This document shows positions 8,607 to 60,721 of a DNA stretch of 64,000 nt, one piece after another. Every line of letters starts with the position of its first letter. Position 1 is the stretch's first letter. The DNA comes from Hansschlegelia quercus. GTDB lineage: Bacteria > Pseudomonadota > Alphaproteobacteria > Rhizobiales > Methylopilaceae. The translations under genes were made by a program, and so were the position numbers. The stretch is from the NCBI RefSeq assembly GCF_004310425.1, contig NZ_SIUB01000012.1:1-64000 (forward strand), written 5' to 3'. Under the pieces are notes generated by a model, which saw only the letters and a program-made list of their open reading frames with translations, had not been told where the DNA came from and searched no databases.

Positions 8607-8786
8607 ATGGATGAGAGACAGACGCTGATTGTCGAAGAACTTGGCAGAGCGCTGCGGGATGTCATGCCGGCTGAGGGCGCTCACAAGCTTCCCTCCAGCC
8701 TCCACGATCTGCTCGGCAGACTGCGGGCGACCGACGACTCGCCGCAGTTTTCGGCTCAGACAAACAGTCTTCATAACGCCGGGTGA
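8607..8786 (+). CDS. NepR-like anti-sigma factor
   Basis: 59-residue protein. Residues 9-35 follow the NepR pattern with exact spacing: LGRALRDVM (helix 1), Pro 13 residues after the conserved Leu-Arg pair, then LHDLLGRL (helix 2), as in LRxMYDxVxxEPVPDRFxDLLxxL of known NepR proteins. NepR binds the stress sigma factor EcfG and is released by phosphorylated PhyR. GGAAGG lies 10 bases before the ATG, and a perfect EcfG promoter sits directly upstream, so the gene would be under feedback control. No phyR or ecfG is nearby, so it would be an orphan copy. The Glu-Pro before the second helix is not conserved. Identification is by eye. Confidence 0.55.
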   Translation: MDERQTLIVEELGRALRDVMPAEGAHKLPSSLHDLLGRLRATDDSPQFSAQTNSLHNAG

Positions 8787-9107
8787 CTAAGCGGCCGGTC
8801 GCAAAGGTCGAGCACGGACGGTCTGTGCCGATTCAGCTAGTCGATGGCTGGTGATGCAAGCCTCCGATGCCGAATCGCGCCCAATTGCAAAATGGCCGTC
8901 GTGTATGACGGCTCTTCCCTCATCGTCCATAGCCACAGATCCCTCAGCCGAGCGGGTTCTCAAGCGATCGGTGAGGCCGACCTTGCTTTACAAGATCGAG
9001 CCAACGGTGGCTGTCTTAATAAACGAGGTCCAGAAGCCACATCGTTGCACGGGATGCCGCCGCTCCTGTCGCGATGGCGGGAGCGGCGGTCAGCCAGGTC
9101 GGCGGCG
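8787..9107. other. Gap between nepR-like gene and membrane-protein gene
   Basis: About 320 bases with no recognisable gene. It holds a hairpin at 9057-9089 that probably ends the minus-strand transcript of the membrane protein. Confidence 0.5.
9057..9089 (-). terminator. Hairpin after membrane-protein gene
   Basis: Perfect 10-bp inverted repeat CCGCCGCTCC / GGAGCGGCGG with a 13-base loop, 19 bases after the minus-strand stop at 9108. No clear T-run. Confidence 0.45.
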
Positions 9108-10172
9108 TTACCTGTGGTAGGTAAGGCCCCGCCAGATCCGGCCTTCGTTGCGATGACGTCCGCCCCAGACCGCTCCGATAAACGCCGCCGCAGCAGCGAT
9201 GAGAGCCGAGGCGGCGAGCAGGAACGCCGTCAGGATACTTGCCACTCTGGCCTTCTCGGCTGCTTCCTCGGCCTGAGCTTTGGCGTCGTCAAAACGCTTC
9301 TGAGCTTCGACCTTCAGGCGCTCGGCTTCCGCTTTGGCGTCGTCGACCTTCTTCTGAGCCTCGGCGCGGATCGCTTGCGACTTGTCCACGGCCTCCTTCA
9401 CGCGCGCATCGGCTTCCTCCGCGCTCAAACCAGTTCGCGCCACCACCTGATCGCGAAGAAACACGCGATCTGAGTCAGAAATATTGCCGGTGCTGACCAC
9501 GTTCGTAAGGATCGTGGCGATTTGCTTTTGCGCCGCAGCGGGATCCTGTGGCTGGCCGGGATTTTGGCCATTCGGCCGCGCCATCTGATCGACCAGATAG
9601 TCCACCGGATTTCCCTGCGCTCCCGCGGGAAGCATGTCTTTGAGCGAAGGCGCGGCGCTTGCTGCGCCTCCAACGGCTTGTCCAACGCCGCTGACAGCGC
9701 CTCCGAGAAGTTGCCCGGCCCCCTGAGCAAGACCACCTGCCGCCGAGCCAGTCGCCTGGACCGCCGTCTGGGCGGCGCTTCCTACCGTCCGCGCAGTGCC
9801 GCCGATAAGGGACGCAGCAAAGCTTCCCGCGACGAGCATGCCGAGACCCCAAACGACGAGGCCATGGAGCCCGTCCCGTGCTGTGGTTTCGTCACGAGTG
9901 GCGTCGGCGACGCCGCGCCGCATGCGGCCGGCCACGTAGCCGCCCAGCATGTAAACAGCGACAATGGAGATGGCGACGAAGAGCGCCGTGATTATCAGTC
10001 CGAAGGTGCTAATCCCGCCGTCTTTTCCGACGGAGACCGATCCCAGTCCAAGGGCGCTCGCGAAGGTCGTGAAAACGAGCGATACGCCCGCCGCCACGAC
10101 TGCTCCCGCGAAAATCGCGCCCCAGTCGACGTACCCAGCCTCGCTGGATGTTGCCGGCGTGCCCTCGTTCAT
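9108..10172 (-). CDS. Four-helix membrane protein with long coiled coil
   Basis: 354-residue inner-membrane protein of unknown function. Two N-terminal hydrophobic segments (about residues 18-43 and 55-80) and a third near 105-125 are followed by a Gly/Ala-rich repetitive stretch (about 130-185). A charged coiled coil rich in Ala, Glu and Lys (about 255-315, repeats such as VDDAKAEAERLKVEAQKRF) leads into a last membrane segment (about 318-345). The type is often found next to stress and envelope genes in Rhizobiales. It is translationally coupled to the 24-codon gene upstream: the ATG shares one base with that gene's TGA. Confidence 0.75.
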   Translation of the reverse strand: MNEGTPATSSEAGYVDWGAIFAGAVVAAGVSLVFTTFASALGLGSVSVGKDGGISTFGLIITALFVAISIVAVYMLGGYVAGRMRRGVADATRDETTARDGLHGLVVWGLGMLVAGSFAASLIGGTARTVGSAAQTAVQATGSAAGGLAQGAGQLLGGAVSGVGQAVGGAASAAPSLKDMLPAGAQGNPVDYLVDQMARPNGQNPGQPQDPAAAQKQIATILTNVVSTGNISDSDRVFLRDQVVARTGLSAEEADARVKEAVDKSQAIRAEAQKKVDDAKAEAERLKVEAQKRFDDAKAQAEEAAEKARVASILTAFLLAASALIAAAAAFIGAVWGGRHRNEGRIWRGLTYHR

Positions 10173-55735: not shown

Positions 55736-58123
55736 ATGAAGCGTATGGTTCGAGTAGTCGGGCGGCTCGCCCTCGCCTCGTCGGTGGCCGTTCAGGCGCT
55801 GGCGATCGGTGCCGGGGCCGGAGTTCTCGGCGCTTCCGAGGCGCATGCTCAAAGTGCGAGCGCGATCGTCGTTCGTGGCAATCAACGCGTGGACGCGGAA
55901 ACCGTTCGCTCCTACTTCACGGGCCGCGGCCCGATCACTCAAAGCGTGATCGATGAGGGCATCCGGGGCCTTTACGCCTCGGGCCTCTTCTCCGACGTGC
56001 GCGTCTCTCGCTCGGGCGGCGGCATCGTGGTCGCTGTCAGCGAGAACCAGGTCATCAACCGCGTCGCCTTCGAGGGCAACTCGAAGGTGAAGGACGCCGT
56101 GCTGATCGCCGAGGTTCAGTCCAAGGCGCGTGGCCCGTTCAACCCCGCGCTCGTGCAGGCCGACGCCCAGCGTATCCAGGAAATCTACCGTCGCTCCGGC
56201 CGCTATGAGGCGACCGTCGAGCCGAAGACGATCGCGCAGCCTAACGGCCGCGTCGACCTGGTCTTCGAGGTGAACGAGGGTGGGAAGACCAAGATCCAGT
56301 CCATCGCTTTCGAAGGCAACGAGGCCTTCGGCGACGGTACGCTTCGCGACCAGATGTCGACCACCGAGTCGAACTGGCTGAGCTGGATCAAGACCTCCGA
56401 CGTCTACGATCCGGACCGGATCAACGCCGACCTCGAGGCGATCCGCAAGTTCTACCTGAACCACGGCTACGCCGACTTCCGAGTCATCTCTGCGAACGCC
56501 GACCTGAACCGCGAGACCAACGCCTTCACGCTGAAGATCGTGGTCGAGGAAGGCGCGCAGTACCGGTACGGCCCGATCGAGGTCGAATCGAATGTCGCCG
56601 AGATCGACGCCGCGACCCTCAGGAGCAAGCTCCAGGTCTCGACGGGCTCGACCTATAATGCGAGCGAAGTCGACAAATCGGTCGAAGCCGCTTCGCTCGA
56701 GCTCGCTTCGCGCGGCTACGCCTTCGCGCAGGTCCGTCCCCGCGGCGACCGCAATCTCGAACAGCGCACGATCGGCCTGACCTTCGTGGTCGAGGAAGGC
56801 GCCCGTGTCTATGTTGAGCGGATCAACGTGCGCGGCAATACGCGCACGCGCGATTACGTCGTCCGTCGCGAGTTCGATATCGGCGAAGGCGACGCCTACA
56901 ATCAGATCTTCATCGATCGCGCGGAGCGGCGCATCAAGGCGCTCGGCTTCTTCAAGACCGTGCGGATCACGACGGAGCCCGGCTCTTCGCCTGACCGAGT
57001 CATCGTGAATGTGGACGTCGAGGATCAGGCGACCGGCGAGTTCTCGATCGCCGGCGGCTACTCCTCGCAGGATGGCATCATCGGCGAAATCGCGCTCGGC
57101 GAACGCAACTTCCTCGGCCGCGGCCAGTACGCACGCATCGCGGCGCAGTTCGGTCAGAACGTCTCGGGCTTCGACTTCTCGTTCACCGAGCCGTACTTCC
57201 TCGGCTACCGCGTCTCGGCCGGCGTCGACGCTTATGTGAAGCGCCGCGACGACACCGATTACACCTCGTACAAGGTCGACACCTATGGCGGCGGTGTCCG
57301 CTTCGGGTTCCCGGTCTCCGAGGAGATCTCGATCGGCACGCGCTATCAGGTCTACCAGCAGGACCTGAAGATCCCGAGCCGCTATCGCGATCCGACGGAT
57401 GACGACCGTGCGTCGGCCGCGGTGTTCGAAGCCGAGGGCAAGACGCTTACGTCGCTCGCCGGCCTTTCGCTGATCTACAACAACCTCGACAATCCCGCCG
57501 ACCCGACGCTCGGCTTCTATGCCGAGCTCAAGGGCGACGTGGCCGGCCTCGGCGGCGACGCGAAATATCTCCGCGGCACCTTCGACGGGCGCTACTACCA
57601 CCCGCTCTACTTCGACGGTGTGGTCGGCATGCTCCGCGCGCAAGCCGGACATATCAAGGCGTTCGGCAACGACGATCTGCGCGTGCTTGACCACTTCTCC
57701 GGCGGTCCGGACCTTGTTCGCGGTTTCGAGCCCCAGGGCTTCGGTCCACGCGATCTTGGAACGAACAACAATCTGATCGGAAGCCCGAACGACGACCCGC
57801 TCGGCGGCACGACCTATTTCGGCGGCTCGGCGGAAGCCCAGTTCCCGATCTTTGGTCTGCCGAAGGAGATCGGCCTGAAGGGCGCGCTTTTCGCCGATGC
57901 TGGTACGGTCTTCAATTACGAAGGCATCAAGTCTCTTGATGTGGACGGCACGCGGCTTGAAGTGAATGCCGCCGACAGCAAGAAGATCCGCTCCTCGGTC
58001 GGCGCCTCGCTGCTCTGGAATTCGCCGCTCGGCCCGATCCGCTTCGACTTCGCCAAGGTTCTGACCAAGGCGAAGTACGACGAGACGCAGTTCTTCCGCT
58101 TCTCTGGCGGCACGCGGTTCTGA
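55736..58123 (+). CDS. bamA: Outer-membrane assembly factor BamA
   Basis: 795-residue Omp85 protein that inserts beta-barrel proteins into the outer membrane. The signal peptide ends AHA near residue 38. Five POTRA domains follow to about residue 390 (the first begins [15 protein letters not shown]). The 16-stranded barrel ends in the C-terminal Phe (FRFSGGTRF) and contains the conserved VRGF motif ([14 protein letters not shown]). Complete and normal. The ATG at 55736 is chosen for the signal peptide. It is followed by a strong terminator, so the lpxD remnant is not co-transcribed by default. Confidence 0.96.
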
Positions 58124-58160
58124 TCCGGCGCGCCGCTTTCGCGGCGGCTCAAACTCTCTT

Positions 58161-58193
58161 AAACGGGCGGCGGCGCCAAACCGCCGCCCGTTT
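58161..58193 (+). terminator. Terminator after bamA
   Basis: Perfect 13-bp stem AAACGGGCGGCGG / CCGCCGCCCGTTT, loop CGCCAAA, followed by ACGTTTT. It stands between bamA and the lpxD-like gene. Confidence 0.9.
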
Positions 58194-58211
58194 ACGTTTT
58201 TGCAGGCTCTC

Positions 58212-58811
58212 ATGGCCGAACCGCTTTTCCTCAATGCAGCTCGCGGCCGCCCTCAAGCGGTGTTCGGCTCGGGCGTCGCGCCCGGAGCCGTCGTGCACCC
58301 GGACGCGCGGCTCGAACAGGACGTGACAGTCGATCCGGGCGCCGTCATCGGGCCGCGCGCGGAGATCGGTAGAGGCGCTGTGATCTGCGCAAACGCGGTG
58401 GTGGGGCCGGACGTCCGTCTCGGCCGTGGATCAGCCGTCGGCGCGGGCGCCACTCTCGTCAATGCGCTGATCGGCGATCGTGTCGTCATTCATCAGGGAG
58501 CGCGCGTCGGTCAGTCCGGCGCCGAAGTCGCGCCCGGGGAGGGCGCCAGTCGGGCGGGGCGCGTTATCTTACAGGACGACGTCGTGATCGGGGCCAACGC
58601 CACGATCGACCGGGGTTCGCTCCGCGACACCGTGATCGGCGAAGGCAGCCGGATCGACAATCTGGCGCATATCCGGCAGGACGTCATGATCGGGCGACGC
58701 TCGACGATCTCCGCCGGCGCCGCCATAGAGCCGGGTACCCGGCTCCCGGACTTCTCGAACAGCCTGCCCGGCGCAGCGGCCGGGCTTGCTCCGCGGGAGC
58801 TCGGCTCCTAA
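58212..58811 (+). CDS. Truncated, probably inactive LpxD homologue
   Basis: 199 residues of left-handed beta-helix hexapeptide repeats; LpxD is usually about 340-350. LpxD N-acylates UDP-3-O-acyl-glucosamine in lipid A synthesis. The core is recognisable ([20 protein letters not shown], then [18 protein letters not shown]). Missing are the ~100-residue N-terminal uridine-binding domain, most repeats after residue 170, and the C-terminal helices. The catalytic His of IDNxxxIxHNVxIG is Gln here ([14 protein letters not shown]), and the GxDGFGF segment is GQSGAEV. The ATG at 58212 is preferred over a TTG at 58200. The frame is open, so a repurposed protein is possible, but LpxD activity is unlikely. 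Confidence 0.8.
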
Positions 58812-58846
58812 GGCCCCCGCGAACCTTTCTTCAACAGGACATGATG

Positions 58847-59323
58847 ATGACCGACGACACGCCACGGGCGACGCCGACCGAGCTTGGCTCGGCCGACATC
58901 ATGCAGATCATGGCGTATCTGCCGCATCGCTATCCTTTCCTGCTGGTGGACCGGGTCATCGACATGGACGGCGACAGATCGGGCGTCGGCATCAAGAACG
59001 TCACGTTCAACGAGCCGCACTTCCAGGGCCATTTCCCCGCGGCCCCCGTGATGCCGGGCGTGCTGCTGATCGAGGGAATGGCGCAGACCGCGGGCGTCAT
59101 CTCGATCGCCGCTCGAGCGTCCACGCCTGCTCCGCGGGTCGTCTACTTCATGACGATCGACAAGGCGAAGTTCCGCAAACCGGTGACCCCTGGCGACGTG
59201 GTCGAATACCACATGACCCAGCTTCGCAAGCGGGGATCGATGTCGTGGTTCAAGGGCGAGGCGAAGGTCGCAGGACGATTGGTTTGCGAGGCCGAGATTT
59301 CCGCGATGCTCGTCGATAAGTAG
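58847..59323 (+). CDS. fabZ: 3-hydroxyacyl-ACP dehydratase FabZ
   Basis: 158-residue hot-dog-fold enzyme of fatty acid synthesis. Catalytic His is in [13 protein letters not shown] and Glu in [28 protein letters not shown] is intact. Three successive ATGs (58841, 58844, 58847) occur; the last is seven bases after AGGA. In relatives fabZ is followed by lpxA, lpxI and lpxB; here a terminator and gltA follow directly. FabZ is needed for fatty acids regardless of lipid A. Confidence 0.95.
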
Positions 59324-59348
59324 GTCGCAGGGACGCGCGCACGAAAAA

Positions 59349-59376
59349 GCCCCGGAGCGTGCGCTCCGGGGCCTTT
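59349..59376. terminator. Bidirectional terminator between fabZ and gltA
   Basis: GCCCCGGAGC (59349-59358) / GCTCCGGGGC (59363-59372), four-base loop, CTTT after it and an A-run before it. It serves both the plus-strand fabZ and the minus-strand gltA. Confidence 0.85.
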
Positions 59377-59389
59377 CTCGATGCATGGC

Positions 59390-60721
59390 TCAGCGGCGCT
59401 GTTCGATCGGCACGTAGTCGCGCTCTGCAGCGCCAGTGTAAAGCTGGCGTGGGCGGCCAATTTTCTGCGAGGGATCCTCGACCATTTCCTTCCACTGGGC
59501 GATCCAGCCGACGGTGCGCGCCAATGCGAACAGCACGGTGAACATGTCGGTCGGGAAGCCCATCGCCTTCAGCGTAATGCCCGAATAGAAGTCGATGTTC
59601 GGGTACAGCTTCTTCTCGACGAAATAATCGTCCTTGAGCGCGATCTGCTCGAGCTCCATCGCGACCTCGAGCAGCGGGTCATCCTTGATGCCGAGTTCGC
59701 CGAGGACCTCGTGGCAGGTCTTCTGCATGATCTTGGCGCGCGGATCGTAGTTCTTGTAGACCCGGTGGCCGAAGCCCATCAGGCGGAACGGATCGTTCTT
59801 GTCCTTGGCCTTGCGGACATAGGCGTCGACCTTATCGGGGGTGCCGATTTCGGAGAGCATCTTCAGCGCCGCTTCGTTGGCGCCGCCATGGGCGGGACCC
59901 CAGAGGCAGGCGATGCCGGCCGCGATGCAGGCGAAAGGATTCGCGCCAGAGGAGCCGGCGAGGCGGACCGTCGAGGTCGAGGCGTTCTGCTCGTGATCGG
60001 CGTGCAGGATGAAGATGCGATCCATCGCGCGGGCCAGCACCGGGTTGACCTTGTACTCCTCGCACGGCACCGCGAAGCACATGTTCAGGAAGTTCGCGGA
60101 GAAATCGAGCGCGTTCTGCGGGTAGATGAACGGCTGGCCGATCGAATATTTGTAGGCCATCGCAGCGAGCGTCGGGATCTTCGCCACCATGCGAATGGCC
60201 GCGATCTCCCGCTGCTCCGGGTCCGTAATGTCGGTTGAGTCGTGATAGAACGCCGAGAGCGCGCCGACGACGCCGCACAGCACCGCCATCGGATGCGCGT
60301 CGCGGCGGAAGCCGGAATAGAAGCGCGACATCTGCTCGTGCACCATCGTGTGGCGCGTCACGAGCCTGTCGAAATCCGCCTTCTGCGCCGAGGTCGGCAG
60401 CTCGCCGTGAAGCAGCAGATAGCAAGTCTCGAGGAAGTCGCCGTGGTCGGCGAGTTCGTCGATGGGGTAGCCCCGATAGAGCAGCACGCCCTGATCGCCG
60501 TCGATATAGGTGATCTTCGACTCGCAGCTCGCGGTCGAGGTGAAGCCGGGGTCGTAGGTGAAGAGGCCGGTGTTCTTGTAGAGCGTCTGAACGTCGAGGA
60601 CGGACGGACCCACGGAACCGTGCCGAATGGCGAGATCCAGGTCGGCCGAGCCGATTGTGAGGCGCCCGGTCTCCGGCTCGCCGGGGCTGTCGACCTTGAG
60701 CGTGCTGGTGGTCGCGTTCAT
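59390..60721 (-). CDS. gltA: Citrate synthase
   Basis: 443-residue type II (hexameric, NADH-sensitive class) citrate synthase of the TCA cycle. Active-site His in [16 protein letters not shown] and [15 protein letters not shown], catalytic Asp in [16 protein letters not shown]. Start is the ATG at 60721 ([16 protein letters not shown]). A good promoter (TTGACA-N17-AACAAA on the minus strand) lies about 115 bases upstream. Confidence 0.97.

Follow-up and report, generated by a model that had tools for sequence, protein, structure and literature searches.

The lpxD region and its neighbours

The window is the whole 64,000-nucleotide stretch analysed here, from contig NZ_SIUB01000012.1 of Hansschlegelia quercus, whose assembly (G000; 17 contigs, scored 100% complete) is referred to as the window genome. 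The following features were identified at the locus:

55736..58123, + strand: bamA, intact (TIGR03303, 745.9 bits; cut-off 297.15)
58161..58201, + strand: GC-rich hairpin with a T-rich tail between bamA and lpxD' (compared by eye)
58212..58811, + strand: lpxD', an LpxD derivative of 199 amino acids with an ATG start (phmmer, Pfam/TIGR profiles, alignment)
58230..58493, + strand: first half of the left-handed beta-helix (LpxD residues 103–190), constrained (regional dN/dS, relative rates)
58494..58766, + strand: second, formerly catalytic half of the beta-helix (LpxD residues 191–285), fast-evolving (alignment, dN/dS, rates)
58677–58679, + strand: codon of Gln156, in place of the catalytic histidine (alignment)
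58841..59323, + strand: fabZ, intact (TIGR01750, 188.3 bits; cut-off 155.15)
59324..59389, + strand: junction without lpxA-lpxI-lpxB, with a terminator-like hairpin only (fabZ–gltA distance)
59390..60721, − strand: gltA, intact neighbour (ORF and profile comparison)

At this locus lpxA, lpxI and lpxB are absent, bamA, fabZ and gltA are intact, and lpxD is present as an ORF of 199 residues, which we call lpxD'. An earlier note on this DNA had described bamA and fabZ as intact, and both scored above their TIGR cut-offs; it had also placed a terminator and then gltA directly after fabZ, which was confirmed by a gap of about 70 bp with a terminator-like hairpin (79 bp between the profile matches).

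The window genome belongs to a GTDB genus of 13 genomes, which includes Hansschlegelia beijingensis and Methylopila capsulata (NCBI family Methylopilaceae). The lpxA-lpxI-lpxB genes were absent in 8 of these, referred to here as loss genomes, and the other 5 keep everything. The fabZ and gltA matches were 61–260 bp apart in 6 further loss genomes for which the distance was measured, and 2879–3374 bp apart in 6 genomes with lpxA-lpxI-lpxB and an adjoining gltA. The gene order that the note had given as usual, bamA-lpxD-fabZ-lpxA-lpxI-lpxB-gltA, held through lpxB in all 13 genomes checked (5/5 lipid-A-positive members of the genus, 5 other members of the family and 3/3 further genomes of the order). 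Its last step is not general; gltA follows lpxB in 7/13 (G004, G013–G017 and G036) and was not found within the fetched downstream stretch in 6/13 (G003, G006, G009, G011, G018 and G044). By eye, a hairpin similar to the one between bamA and lpxD' was also seen in G002, G003 and G005, so that it is also present where lipid A is kept, as in G003.

Sequence features of the lpxD' protein

The lpxD' product resembles LpxD (UDP-3-O-acylglucosamine N-acyltransferase) in its sequence and in a hexapeptide beta-helix, recognised by sequence as six PF00132 stretches (92.5 bits). Among LpxD structures its best phmmer match was 2iu8 (E = 1.5e-24), and E. coli LpxD (3eh0) was matched over query residues 20–175 (E = 2.5e-20). 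Unlike LpxD, it has no uridine-binding domain, no catalytic histidine and no C-terminal part. The protein had no match to PF04613 (LpxD N-terminal uridine-binding domain) and scored 140.3 bits against the LpxD equivalog model TIGR01853, under the 242.5 bits needed, in agreement with the earlier description of a 199-residue homologue without its N-terminal domain. This deletion is in frame and the start was kept, with MAEPLF in the window matching MIEPRF of G005. In the alignment of loss genomes the C-terminal LpxD segment, also said to be lost, was absent from the window protein, as it is in the other loss genomes.

The reported replacement of the catalytic histidine by glutamine (IRQD) was seen as well; Gln156 aligns with His239 of E. 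coli LpxD (IAHN), which we take to be the catalytic residue, and H156 and N157 are nearly invariant columns in the alignment of 25 sequences. Among the 7 loss genomes with reliable sequence, a histidine occupies this position only in G002 (IGHN) and G010 (IPHD). The window protein is presumed to be catalytically dead.

Lipid A genes in the genome and the genus

Lipid A is the anchor of outer-membrane lipopolysaccharide (LPS). Profile searches of the window genome found no match to PF04613 (LpxD N-domain), PF03331 (LpxC), PF02684 (LpxB), PF04413 (KdtA), PF02606 (LpxK) or PF13720 (LpxA C-domain). All six profiles find matches in the controls, E. coli and Caulobacter, and all but PF04613 do so in the 5 lipid-A-positive members of the genus, within which PF04613 was searched in the window genome alone. 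LpxB, LpxK and the LpxA C-domain were also unmatched in the 7 other loss genomes. The loss of the standard lipid A pathway that the note had suggested is thus upheld by six steps without a match genome-wide, which are also missing in 7 related genomes (LpxC being divergent in 6), and the refuting case it had named, a second complete lpxD-lpxA-lpxI-lpxB set elsewhere in the genome, was looked for and not found. The 8 loss genomes form one clade (UFboot 98), and one loss event is therefore enough. Among them, G012, a single contig of 4.45 Mb, is also without canonical LpxC, LpxB, LpxK, LpxA and LptC.

The models do miss single steps in LpxC-positive genomes: LpxB in G023, G026 and G033 (94, 84 and 88% complete, respectively), KdtA in G022, G024 and G041, LpxK in G022 and the LpxA C-domain in G023. 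Only two KdtA matches were obtained in the other loss genomes, both below the cut-off of 23.9 (22.5 bits in G005 and 21.4 bits in G007); they lie about 10 kb from the sphingolipid LptFG pair and are more likely cluster glycosyltransferases than KdtA.

A divergent second LpxC (LpxC2) was identified in 6/8 loss genomes, being absent in G005 and the window genome. Its active-site motifs look conserved by eye, and some LpxC-type chemistry may remain in these 6 genomes, though not in the window genome. We do not take LpxC2 as proof of lipid A, since in the 4 genomes inspected it is an isolated gene, flanked by genes named by eye as those of an MFS transporter and a superoxide-dismutase-like protein, and since in the loss clade it co-occurs with the loss of LpxA, LpxB, LpxK and KdtA.

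Among the literature matches listed, which largely exclude subscription journals and species descriptions, none reported that these bacteria have lost lipid A, and PMC9386255 mentions neither Rhizobiales, Hyphomicrobi nor LPS.

Retained and lost parts of the Lpt exporter

The Lpt machinery normally delivers LPS to the cell surface. Its inner-membrane genes of the LPS type (lptF, lptG and lptC) are deleted throughout the loss clade, and lptB, lptA, lptD and a second pair, lptF2G2, are retained. Between pepA and lptD, lptFG is gone in 7/7 loss genomes fetched and present in 5/5 kept ones, and the same counts hold for lptC between rnd and lptA; a 54-residue LptG stub still lies beside lptD in G005. 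LptC (PF06835) was detected in 0/8 loss genomes and in 5/5 kept members of the genus, with a model that also misses the LpxC-positive G015, G022, G038, G043 and G044; it is present in all six other LpxC-less genomes of the order.

LptD, for which the earlier note had proposed a search, is kept in the window genome. LptB (named by its ABC domain and its position beside lptA), LptA and an LptF/LptG pair are also present there, and the only such pair found is the one in the sphingolipid cluster described below. Its LptF2 shows 66% identity to LptF2 of G003 and 25% to the canonical LptF of the same genome. LptD, LptA and LptB were retained without stops; LptD evolves at 1.61 times the BamA rate in the loss clade, against a comparison value of 1.68 times, and is not accelerated, and LptA and LptB are somewhat faster-evolving in the loss clade.

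The sphingolipid cluster

The search for spt that had been proposed led to a Caulobacter-type sphingolipid cluster in the window genome (contig C11, positions 213072–226414). It brings together spt, acpR, aasR, cerS, a cpgB-like kinase gene, lptF2, lptG2 and genes for a CDP-alcohol transferase, a nucleotidyltransferase and an ABC flippase, named by Pfam/NCBIfam domains and by their order relative to the layout in the available part of PMC11324152. Spt exceeded the cut-off of the NCBIfam serine palmitoyltransferase model (NF047599, 673.8 against 500), and the clustered LptF and LptG scored as such, though under the LPS cut-offs (194.8 against 230 and 206.5 against 240). Inspection of the cluster's ORF lists by eye gave no candidate for cerR (ceramide reductase) or lptC2; the epimerase-family protein encoded next to lptA is a candidate cerR only. 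Upstream of the cluster lie two group-1/4 glycosyltransferases and an ELM1-family protein.

The CerS-like gene, named by its position in the cluster (with a weak GNAT match) rather than by comparison with the Caulobacter sequence, is present in 13/13 members of the genus (61–72% identity to that of the window genome) and in 0/5 other members of the family. By coordinates it adjoins a second LptF-LptG pair in all 13, and a Caulobacter-type cluster surrounds this pair in all 5 genomes inspected. The genus probably inherited the cluster from its common ancestor, and its presence would have made the loss of lipid A survivable.

CerS-like relatives (36–47% identical) were found in nine genomes of other families. 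Outside the family the gene is present in 6/6 genomes without LpxC and 3/37 with LpxC (G023, G036 and G043), a difference with a Fisher p of 1.4e-5 that counts genomes, not independent events. The LpxC-less G021, G039 and G054 each yielded a single LptFG pair, which lies among cluster genes; G031, G052 and G053, also LpxC-less, have further LptFG copies.

Evolution of lpxD'

Codon maximum likelihood, applied to the loss-clade N-domain alone, reached saturation (tree length 25, omega 0.043), which makes absolute dN/dS unreliable; Nei-Gojobori regional ratios and amino-acid rates relative to BamA were used instead. G007 was excluded from the rate, dN/dS and junction counts, leaving 7 of the 8 loss genomes. 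Its lpxD frameshift is likely a sequencing error, as LptF and LptG there are also split into several frames and the assembly has a completeness of 88% and a contamination of 5%.

In the first half of the beta-helix the rate is close to that of BamA, and dN/dS was 0.15–0.18 in each loss-clade pair tested (7 of a possible 21); the N-domain and catalytic half are fast-changing, at 4–5 times the BamA rate in the loss clade, or deleted. Thus, the word 'eroded' in the earlier note fits the N-domain and catalytic half, which are changed or lost, but not the part of the beta-helix that still looks constrained.

That lpxD' is an ordinary functionless pseudogene, its signal of constraint residual or artefactual, has a real chance of being correct, though short of even. 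Such a view would account for the fast rates of the N-domain and catalytic half and for the copy without an N-domain in the window; it also gains from the saturation of the codon model, from an acceleration of the first helix half itself (about 1.6-fold, 95% 1.04–2.79) and from the six other LpxC-less genomes, in which lpxD' had weak hexapeptide matches at best (7.2e-15 and 32% identity in G053). On the other hand, dN/dS is low in the first helix half, the deletion in the window is in frame with the start retained, and the frame is open in 7/7 loss genomes with reliable sequence; by a rough estimate about 8 stops would be expected in the second helix half and 4.5 in the N-domain if stops were free to occur, and none was observed. 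Simple decay is not fully rejected, but the constraint and the open frames speak against it, and lpxD' may instead survive as a non-catalytic scaffold.

Discussion

The most probable reading of these gene contents, to which we assign a probability of roughly 0.75, is that lipid A synthesis was permanently lost in an ancestor of the clade, that sphingolipids took the place of LPS and are now carried by the Lpt bridge, and that lpxD' lost its catalytic role. Anionic sphingolipids would then fill the outer leaflet. AasR, AcpR, Spt and CerS would synthesise phosphorylated, perhaps glycosylated, ceramides as the cluster products, with a head group added by the DAGK-like kinase, the CDP-alcohol transferase and the nucleotidyltransferase; the clustered ABC transporter would flip them, and LptB2F2G2 would move them via LptA and LptD to the surface. 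As LptF, LptG and LptC disappeared with the loss and LptB, LptA, LptD and LptF2G2 stayed, a sphingolipid exporter is predicted by subtraction, and since LptC is undetectable in the loss clade the inferred bridge would be short of one part. Between bamA and fabZ, lpxD would have lost catalysis, with its constrained first helix half as a possible non-enzymatic scaffold. A further-reaching proposal, tentative and on the whole rather unlikely, is that the reduced machine (LptB2-LptF2-LptG2, LptA and LptD, with no LptC) carries a sphingolipid as the main outer-leaflet lipid and, in addition, that the first helix half of LpxD has a second, non-catalytic role, hidden in bacteria with lipid A, which outlived the enzyme and is the reason the dead lpxD is kept in its place.

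It is improbable, though worth weighing, that LPS loss is real but the Lpt cargo is another glycolipid, with sphingolipids going another way and LptF2G2 merely lying within their cluster. The glycosyltransferases and the ELM1-family protein upstream of the cluster would suit such a cargo, and how Caulobacter transports its sphingolipids is still to be established (available parts of PMC11087976 and PMC11324152); against it, the sole LptFG pair found in the window genome is that of the sphingolipid cluster, and this is repeated in G021, G039 and G054.

We regard it as very improbable that lipid A is still made by highly divergent, unrecognised enzymes or an unrelated pathway and exported as ordinary LPS by the kept LptD. 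The intact LptD, LptA and LptB, the LpxC2 of 6/8 loss genomes and the single steps missed by the models in LpxC-positive genomes are compatible with it, but all six model searches fail jointly in the window genome, and five of these find their targets in every one of the 5 sister species; both LPS permease genes and lptC were cut out at the same junctions in 7/7 loss genomes fetched, and most constraint is gone from the LpxD catalytic half. An assembly or binning gap can practically be dismissed, for although several genomes are drafts, the window genome is scored 100% complete, the single-contig G012 lacks the same genes, and the junction neighbours lie close together on one contig.

With replacement of LPS by sphingolipids as the preferred reading, the clade appears to be a new variant of the LPS-free sphingolipid bacteria already known from Sphingomonas and from Caulobacter mutants (PMC10964400; available part of PMC11324152). 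Sphingomonas and other Sphingomonadales are Alphaproteobacteria with sphingolipids instead of lipid A (same sources), and the clade, judged by its genes, would be so too. The available part of PMC11324152 describes the genes for sphingolipids and their transport as scattered in Sphingomonadales, whereas the window genome has one cluster; unlike them, the clade still shows the junctions, the LptG stub, the LpxD remnant and lipid-A-positive sisters in the same GTDB genus. In gene content and clustering the closer likeness is to the ceramide (di)phosphoglycerate pathway of Caulobacter crescentus (CC_1168–CC_1152; available part of PMC11324152), with which the cluster shares an acyl-AMP ligase, ACP, Spt, kinase, CDP-alcohol transferase, LptF2, LptG2, CerS, nucleotidyltransferase and ABC flippase. 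That pathway has LptC2-LptF2-LptG2; in the cluster of the window genome neither LptC2 nor cerR was recognised by eye. Caulobacter normally makes lipid A, which is dispensable only conditionally (PMC10964400), whereas in the window genome the lipid A enzymes, canonical LptF/G and LptC were unmatched.

Lipid A is essential in most cases but can be dispensed with in some, and the reason is an open question (PMC10964400). For bacterial sphingolipids, neither a flippase nor a lipid transporter had been identified according to the available part of PMC11087976, and their route to the outer membrane is not known according to that of PMC11324152. One GTDB genus with 5 lipid-A-positive and 8 apparently lipid-A-free genomes offers a before-and-after comparison, and strains of both kinds have been deposited, with Hansschlegelia beijingensis DSM 25481 representing the loss and Methylopila capsulata DSM 6130 the kept state, which makes the exporter prediction directly testable. 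The surviving half of LpxD suggests a second role for a well-studied enzyme family and, if our reading is true, the clade would be a natural test case of how a cell builds an outer membrane without lipopolysaccharide.

The lpxD locus and the lipid A genes of the genome

The earlier note had described the lpxD homologue in the window as a 199-residue protein lacking the N-terminal domain and the C-terminal part, with Gln in place of the catalytic His, and this was borne out by alignment and domain searches. The flanking bamA and fabZ, which had been called intact, both scored over the cut-offs of their curated models.

58212-58811, lpxD remnant (lpxD′), encoding a 199-aa LpxD homologue
58841-59323, fabZ, 3′ of lpxD′

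The match of lpxD′ to the 357-aa intact LpxD of G003, a lipid-A-positive member of the same genus, was confined to residues 103–281 (68% identity), and lpxD′ ends before the C-terminal part of LpxD. Profile searches detected the N-terminal LpxD domain neither in the lpxD′ protein nor anywhere in the genome. Gln156 of lpxD′ aligns to His239 of E. coli LpxD, which we take to be the catalytic His. The gene order assumed to be normal, bamA-lpxD-fabZ-lpxA-lpxI-lpxB-gltA, held up to lpxB in all 13 lipid-A-positive loci fetched, while gltA came next in only 7 and was not found within the stretch in the other 6; in the window, gltA is convergent to fabZ across a gap of about 70 bp. A strong GC-rich hairpin (58161-58201) separates bamA from lpxD′; of the genomes compared, two further lipid-A-free ones and one that keeps lipid A have a similar hairpin. 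It is probably the bamA terminator, in which case lpxD′-fabZ would require its own promoter.

The window corresponds to contig C4 in a genome of 3.58 Mb (G000; 17 contigs, completeness score 100%), in which whole-genome family searches gave no match to LpxC, LpxB, KdtA/WaaA, LpxK or the LpxA C-domain, and no second lpx set was found elsewhere at the sensitivity of these searches. This sensitivity is good, if imperfect: single steps went unmatched in a few LpxC-positive genomes, some of them incomplete (LpxB in G023, G026 and G033; KdtA in G022, G024 and G041; LpxK in G022). G022, from another family and 99% complete, had matches to LpxC, LpxB and LpxA and none to LpxK and KdtA; it perhaps makes lipid A without the 4′-phosphate and Kdo, or has divergent enzymes. 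G023, also from another family, had matches to LpxC, LpxK and KdtA, none to LpxB and the LpxA C-domain, no LpxD orthologue, and a CerS-like gene close to its LptFG pair; this points either to an incomplete genome (94%) or to lipid A being lost a second time, with the process still underway. LptD, LptA and one LptF/LptG pair are present in G000.

A probable single loss within the genus

Among the 13 genomes of the GTDB genus, five (G003, G004, G006, G009 and G011; kept genomes) carry the full bamA-lpxD-fabZ-lpxA-lpxI-lpxB run with matches to canonical LpxC, LpxB, KdtA, LpxK and LpxA. The other eight (G000, G001, G002, G005, G007, G008, G010 and G012; loss genomes) miss lpxA-lpxI-lpxB at the locus, with no match to LpxA, LpxB or LpxK elsewhere in the genome and none to canonical LpxC; KdtA was matched in two (G005 and G007), both under the curated cut-off. 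In a tree of BamA, FabZ, GltA and GltX (21 taxa, 7 without GltA and GltX), the loss genomes formed one clade (ultrafast bootstrap 98%) and the kept genomes another (82%), and one ancestral event is the simplest account of the loss.

A second, divergent LpxC was detected in 11 of the 13 genomes (5/5 kept and 6/8 loss, being absent in G000 and G005), scoring about 230 bits with PF03331 vs about 325 for canonical LpxC. In six genomes it has outlasted the rest of lipid A synthesis. Its setting, inspected in four genomes, is that of a lone gene away from lipid genes, with an MFS transporter gene on one side and a superoxide-dismutase-like gene on the other. Two copies were located in fetched stretches, with homologues also in L081 (G008) and L082 (G001).

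L080 (G002), 8791-9717, second LpxC
L079 (G003), 8746-9651, second LpxC

Remodelling of the exporter

The neighbourhoods of lptD and lptA were fetched in 12 genomes of the genus (all except G007). All five kept genomes have canonical LptG directly next to lptD, with LptF there too where the stretch extends so far, and an lptC that separates rnd from lptA. In the seven loss genomes, the next match to lptD was pepA (0.2–0.9 kb off) and the next to lptA was rnd (26–238 bp off), with no match to LptF between pepA and lptD or to LptC between rnd and lptA. A fossil remains in G005.

G005 contig C6, L194:1249-1410, C-terminus of canonical LptG beside lptD, a stub of 54 residues between pepA and lptD with 44% identity to G003 LptG residues 335–388

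PF06835 (LptC) matched 0/8 loss and 5/5 kept genomes; since it also misses five LpxC-positive genomes (G015, G022, G038, G043 and G044), the argument for LptC loss rests on gene context.

LptD, LptA and LptB contain no stops. Relative to BamA, the amino-acid rate of LptD was about equal in the loss and kept clades (1.61 vs 1.68), and LptA (1.50 vs 0.97) and LptB (0.78 vs 0.48) were somewhat faster. As the three genes are free of stops and LptD evolves at a similar rate in both clades, the exporter seems to be still used in the absence of lipid A, and we infer sphingolipid as the obvious cargo.

The sphingolipid cluster

G000 contig C11, 213072 to 226414, sphingolipid cluster
C11:222208-224550, LptF2/LptG2 pair inside the cluster
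G000 contig C16, 115758-116882, second CerS-like protein, outside the cluster

The cluster encodes an ABC exporter, a fatty acyl-AMP ligase (AasR), an acyl carrier protein, a serine palmitoyltransferase (NF047599, 673.8 bits vs a cut-off of 500), an unnamed 312-aa protein, a DAGK-domain kinase, a CDP-alcohol phosphotransferase, a 145-aa protein with no Pfam match, LptF2, LptG2, a GNAT-like protein at the CerS position and an NTP transferase; two group-1/4 glycosyltransferases and an ELM1-family protein lie 5′ of it. Enzymes were named by analogy with PMC11324152 and PMC12275187. In layout, the cluster is similar to the phosphosphingolipid region CC_1168-CC_1152 of Caulobacter, where LptC2/LptF2/LptG2 are proposed, not shown, as sphingolipid carriers (PMC11324152). 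LptF2 and LptG2 of G000 fall under the NCBIfam cut-offs for LPS permeases, and LptF2 shares 66% identity with G003 LptF2 and 25% with G003 canonical LptF; the sole pair of G000 is not that of LPS export.

The cluster was inspected in G000, G002, G003, G005 and G012, whose stretch stops short of the ABC gene. By coordinates, the CerS-like gene adjoins an LptFG pair in 13/13 genus members, kept and loss alike (61–72% identity to the G000 copy), so the cluster is probably older than the lipid A loss; no CerS-like match was found in five other family members examined. The second CerS-like protein also occurs in 13/13 genus members, at 33–36% identity to the G000 cluster copy.

Among 43 genomes of other families of the order, one each, LpxC was missing in six (G021, G031, G039, G052, G053 and G054). 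The CerS-like gene was present in 6/6 of these vs 3/37 LpxC-positive genomes (G023, G036 and G043; Fisher p 1.4e-5, the unit being genomes, not events). In all five of the six with a fetched stretch, an LptFG pair lay amid cluster genes, with the CDP-alcohol transferase and 312-aa protein nearby; Spt was within the stretch in three (G021, G053 and G054), those of G031 and G039 holding a partial cluster. In G052, LptFG and the CerS-like gene are about 3 kb apart by coordinates. Two features of these six do not fit one common course: LptC was matched in all of them, and with lpxD′ as the query they gave no LpxD orthologue, weak hexapeptide matches being the most that was found (best G053, 32% identity).

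Apparent constraint on part of the lpxD remnant

The lpxD-derived frame is open in the seven reliable loss genomes (199–317 aa), its match ending near parent residue 285; G007 was set aside, since LptF and LptG are broken in that assembly too. An in-frame deletion took the N-domain out of the window copy and retained the start (ATGGCCGAACCGCTTTTC vs ATGATCGAACCGCGTTTC in G005).

Rates relative to BamA (loss vs kept) and acceleration (mean pairwise distances, 95% interval)
First half of the beta-helix, residues 103–190: 1.66 vs 1.01; 1.57-fold (1.04–2.79)
Second, formerly catalytic half: 4.32 vs 0.37; 7.75-fold (4.01–21.68)
N-domain: 4.96 (six loss genomes) vs 1.49; 2.33-fold (1.56–3.45)
FabZ control: 1.11 vs 1.06

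We read lpxD′ as having lost its chemistry while part of the enzyme scaffold is still useful. Plain decay is a serious rival, possible if somewhat doubtful. The first half is itself slightly relaxed, because its acceleration is 1.57-fold, and its dN/dS (Nei-Gojobori) was 0.15–0.18 in the seven loss-clade pairs compared, of 21 possible. In the same pairs, the second half gave 0.30–0.49 vs 0.03–0.13 in the four kept-clade pairs compared, of 10 possible. The N-domain, retained in five of the loss-clade pairs, gave 0.55–0.67, the closely related G008-G010 being the exception at 0.14. Codon ML was saturated and set aside. By a rough estimate over these branches, free evolution would have left about 8 stops in the second half and 4.5 in the N-domain; none was observed. 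An LpxD derivative without LpxA, as in the loss clade, differs from the pattern of a published survey, where LpxA and LpxD were always co-present or co-absent (PMC3087551).

Known and new features

Lipid-A-free sphingolipid bacteria are already known in Sphingomonas, and Caulobacter survives lipid A loss given anionic sphingolipids (PMC10964400); PMC11087976 states that the bacterial sphingolipid transport route is unidentified. Among the matches listed from the open-access literature, none described Methylopilaceae, or Hyphomicrobiales of other families, as having lost lipid A. What is new here is the combination of a single, well-bracketed loss within one genus and the matching excision of LptF, LptG and LptC, with LptF2G2 and half an LpxD surviving.
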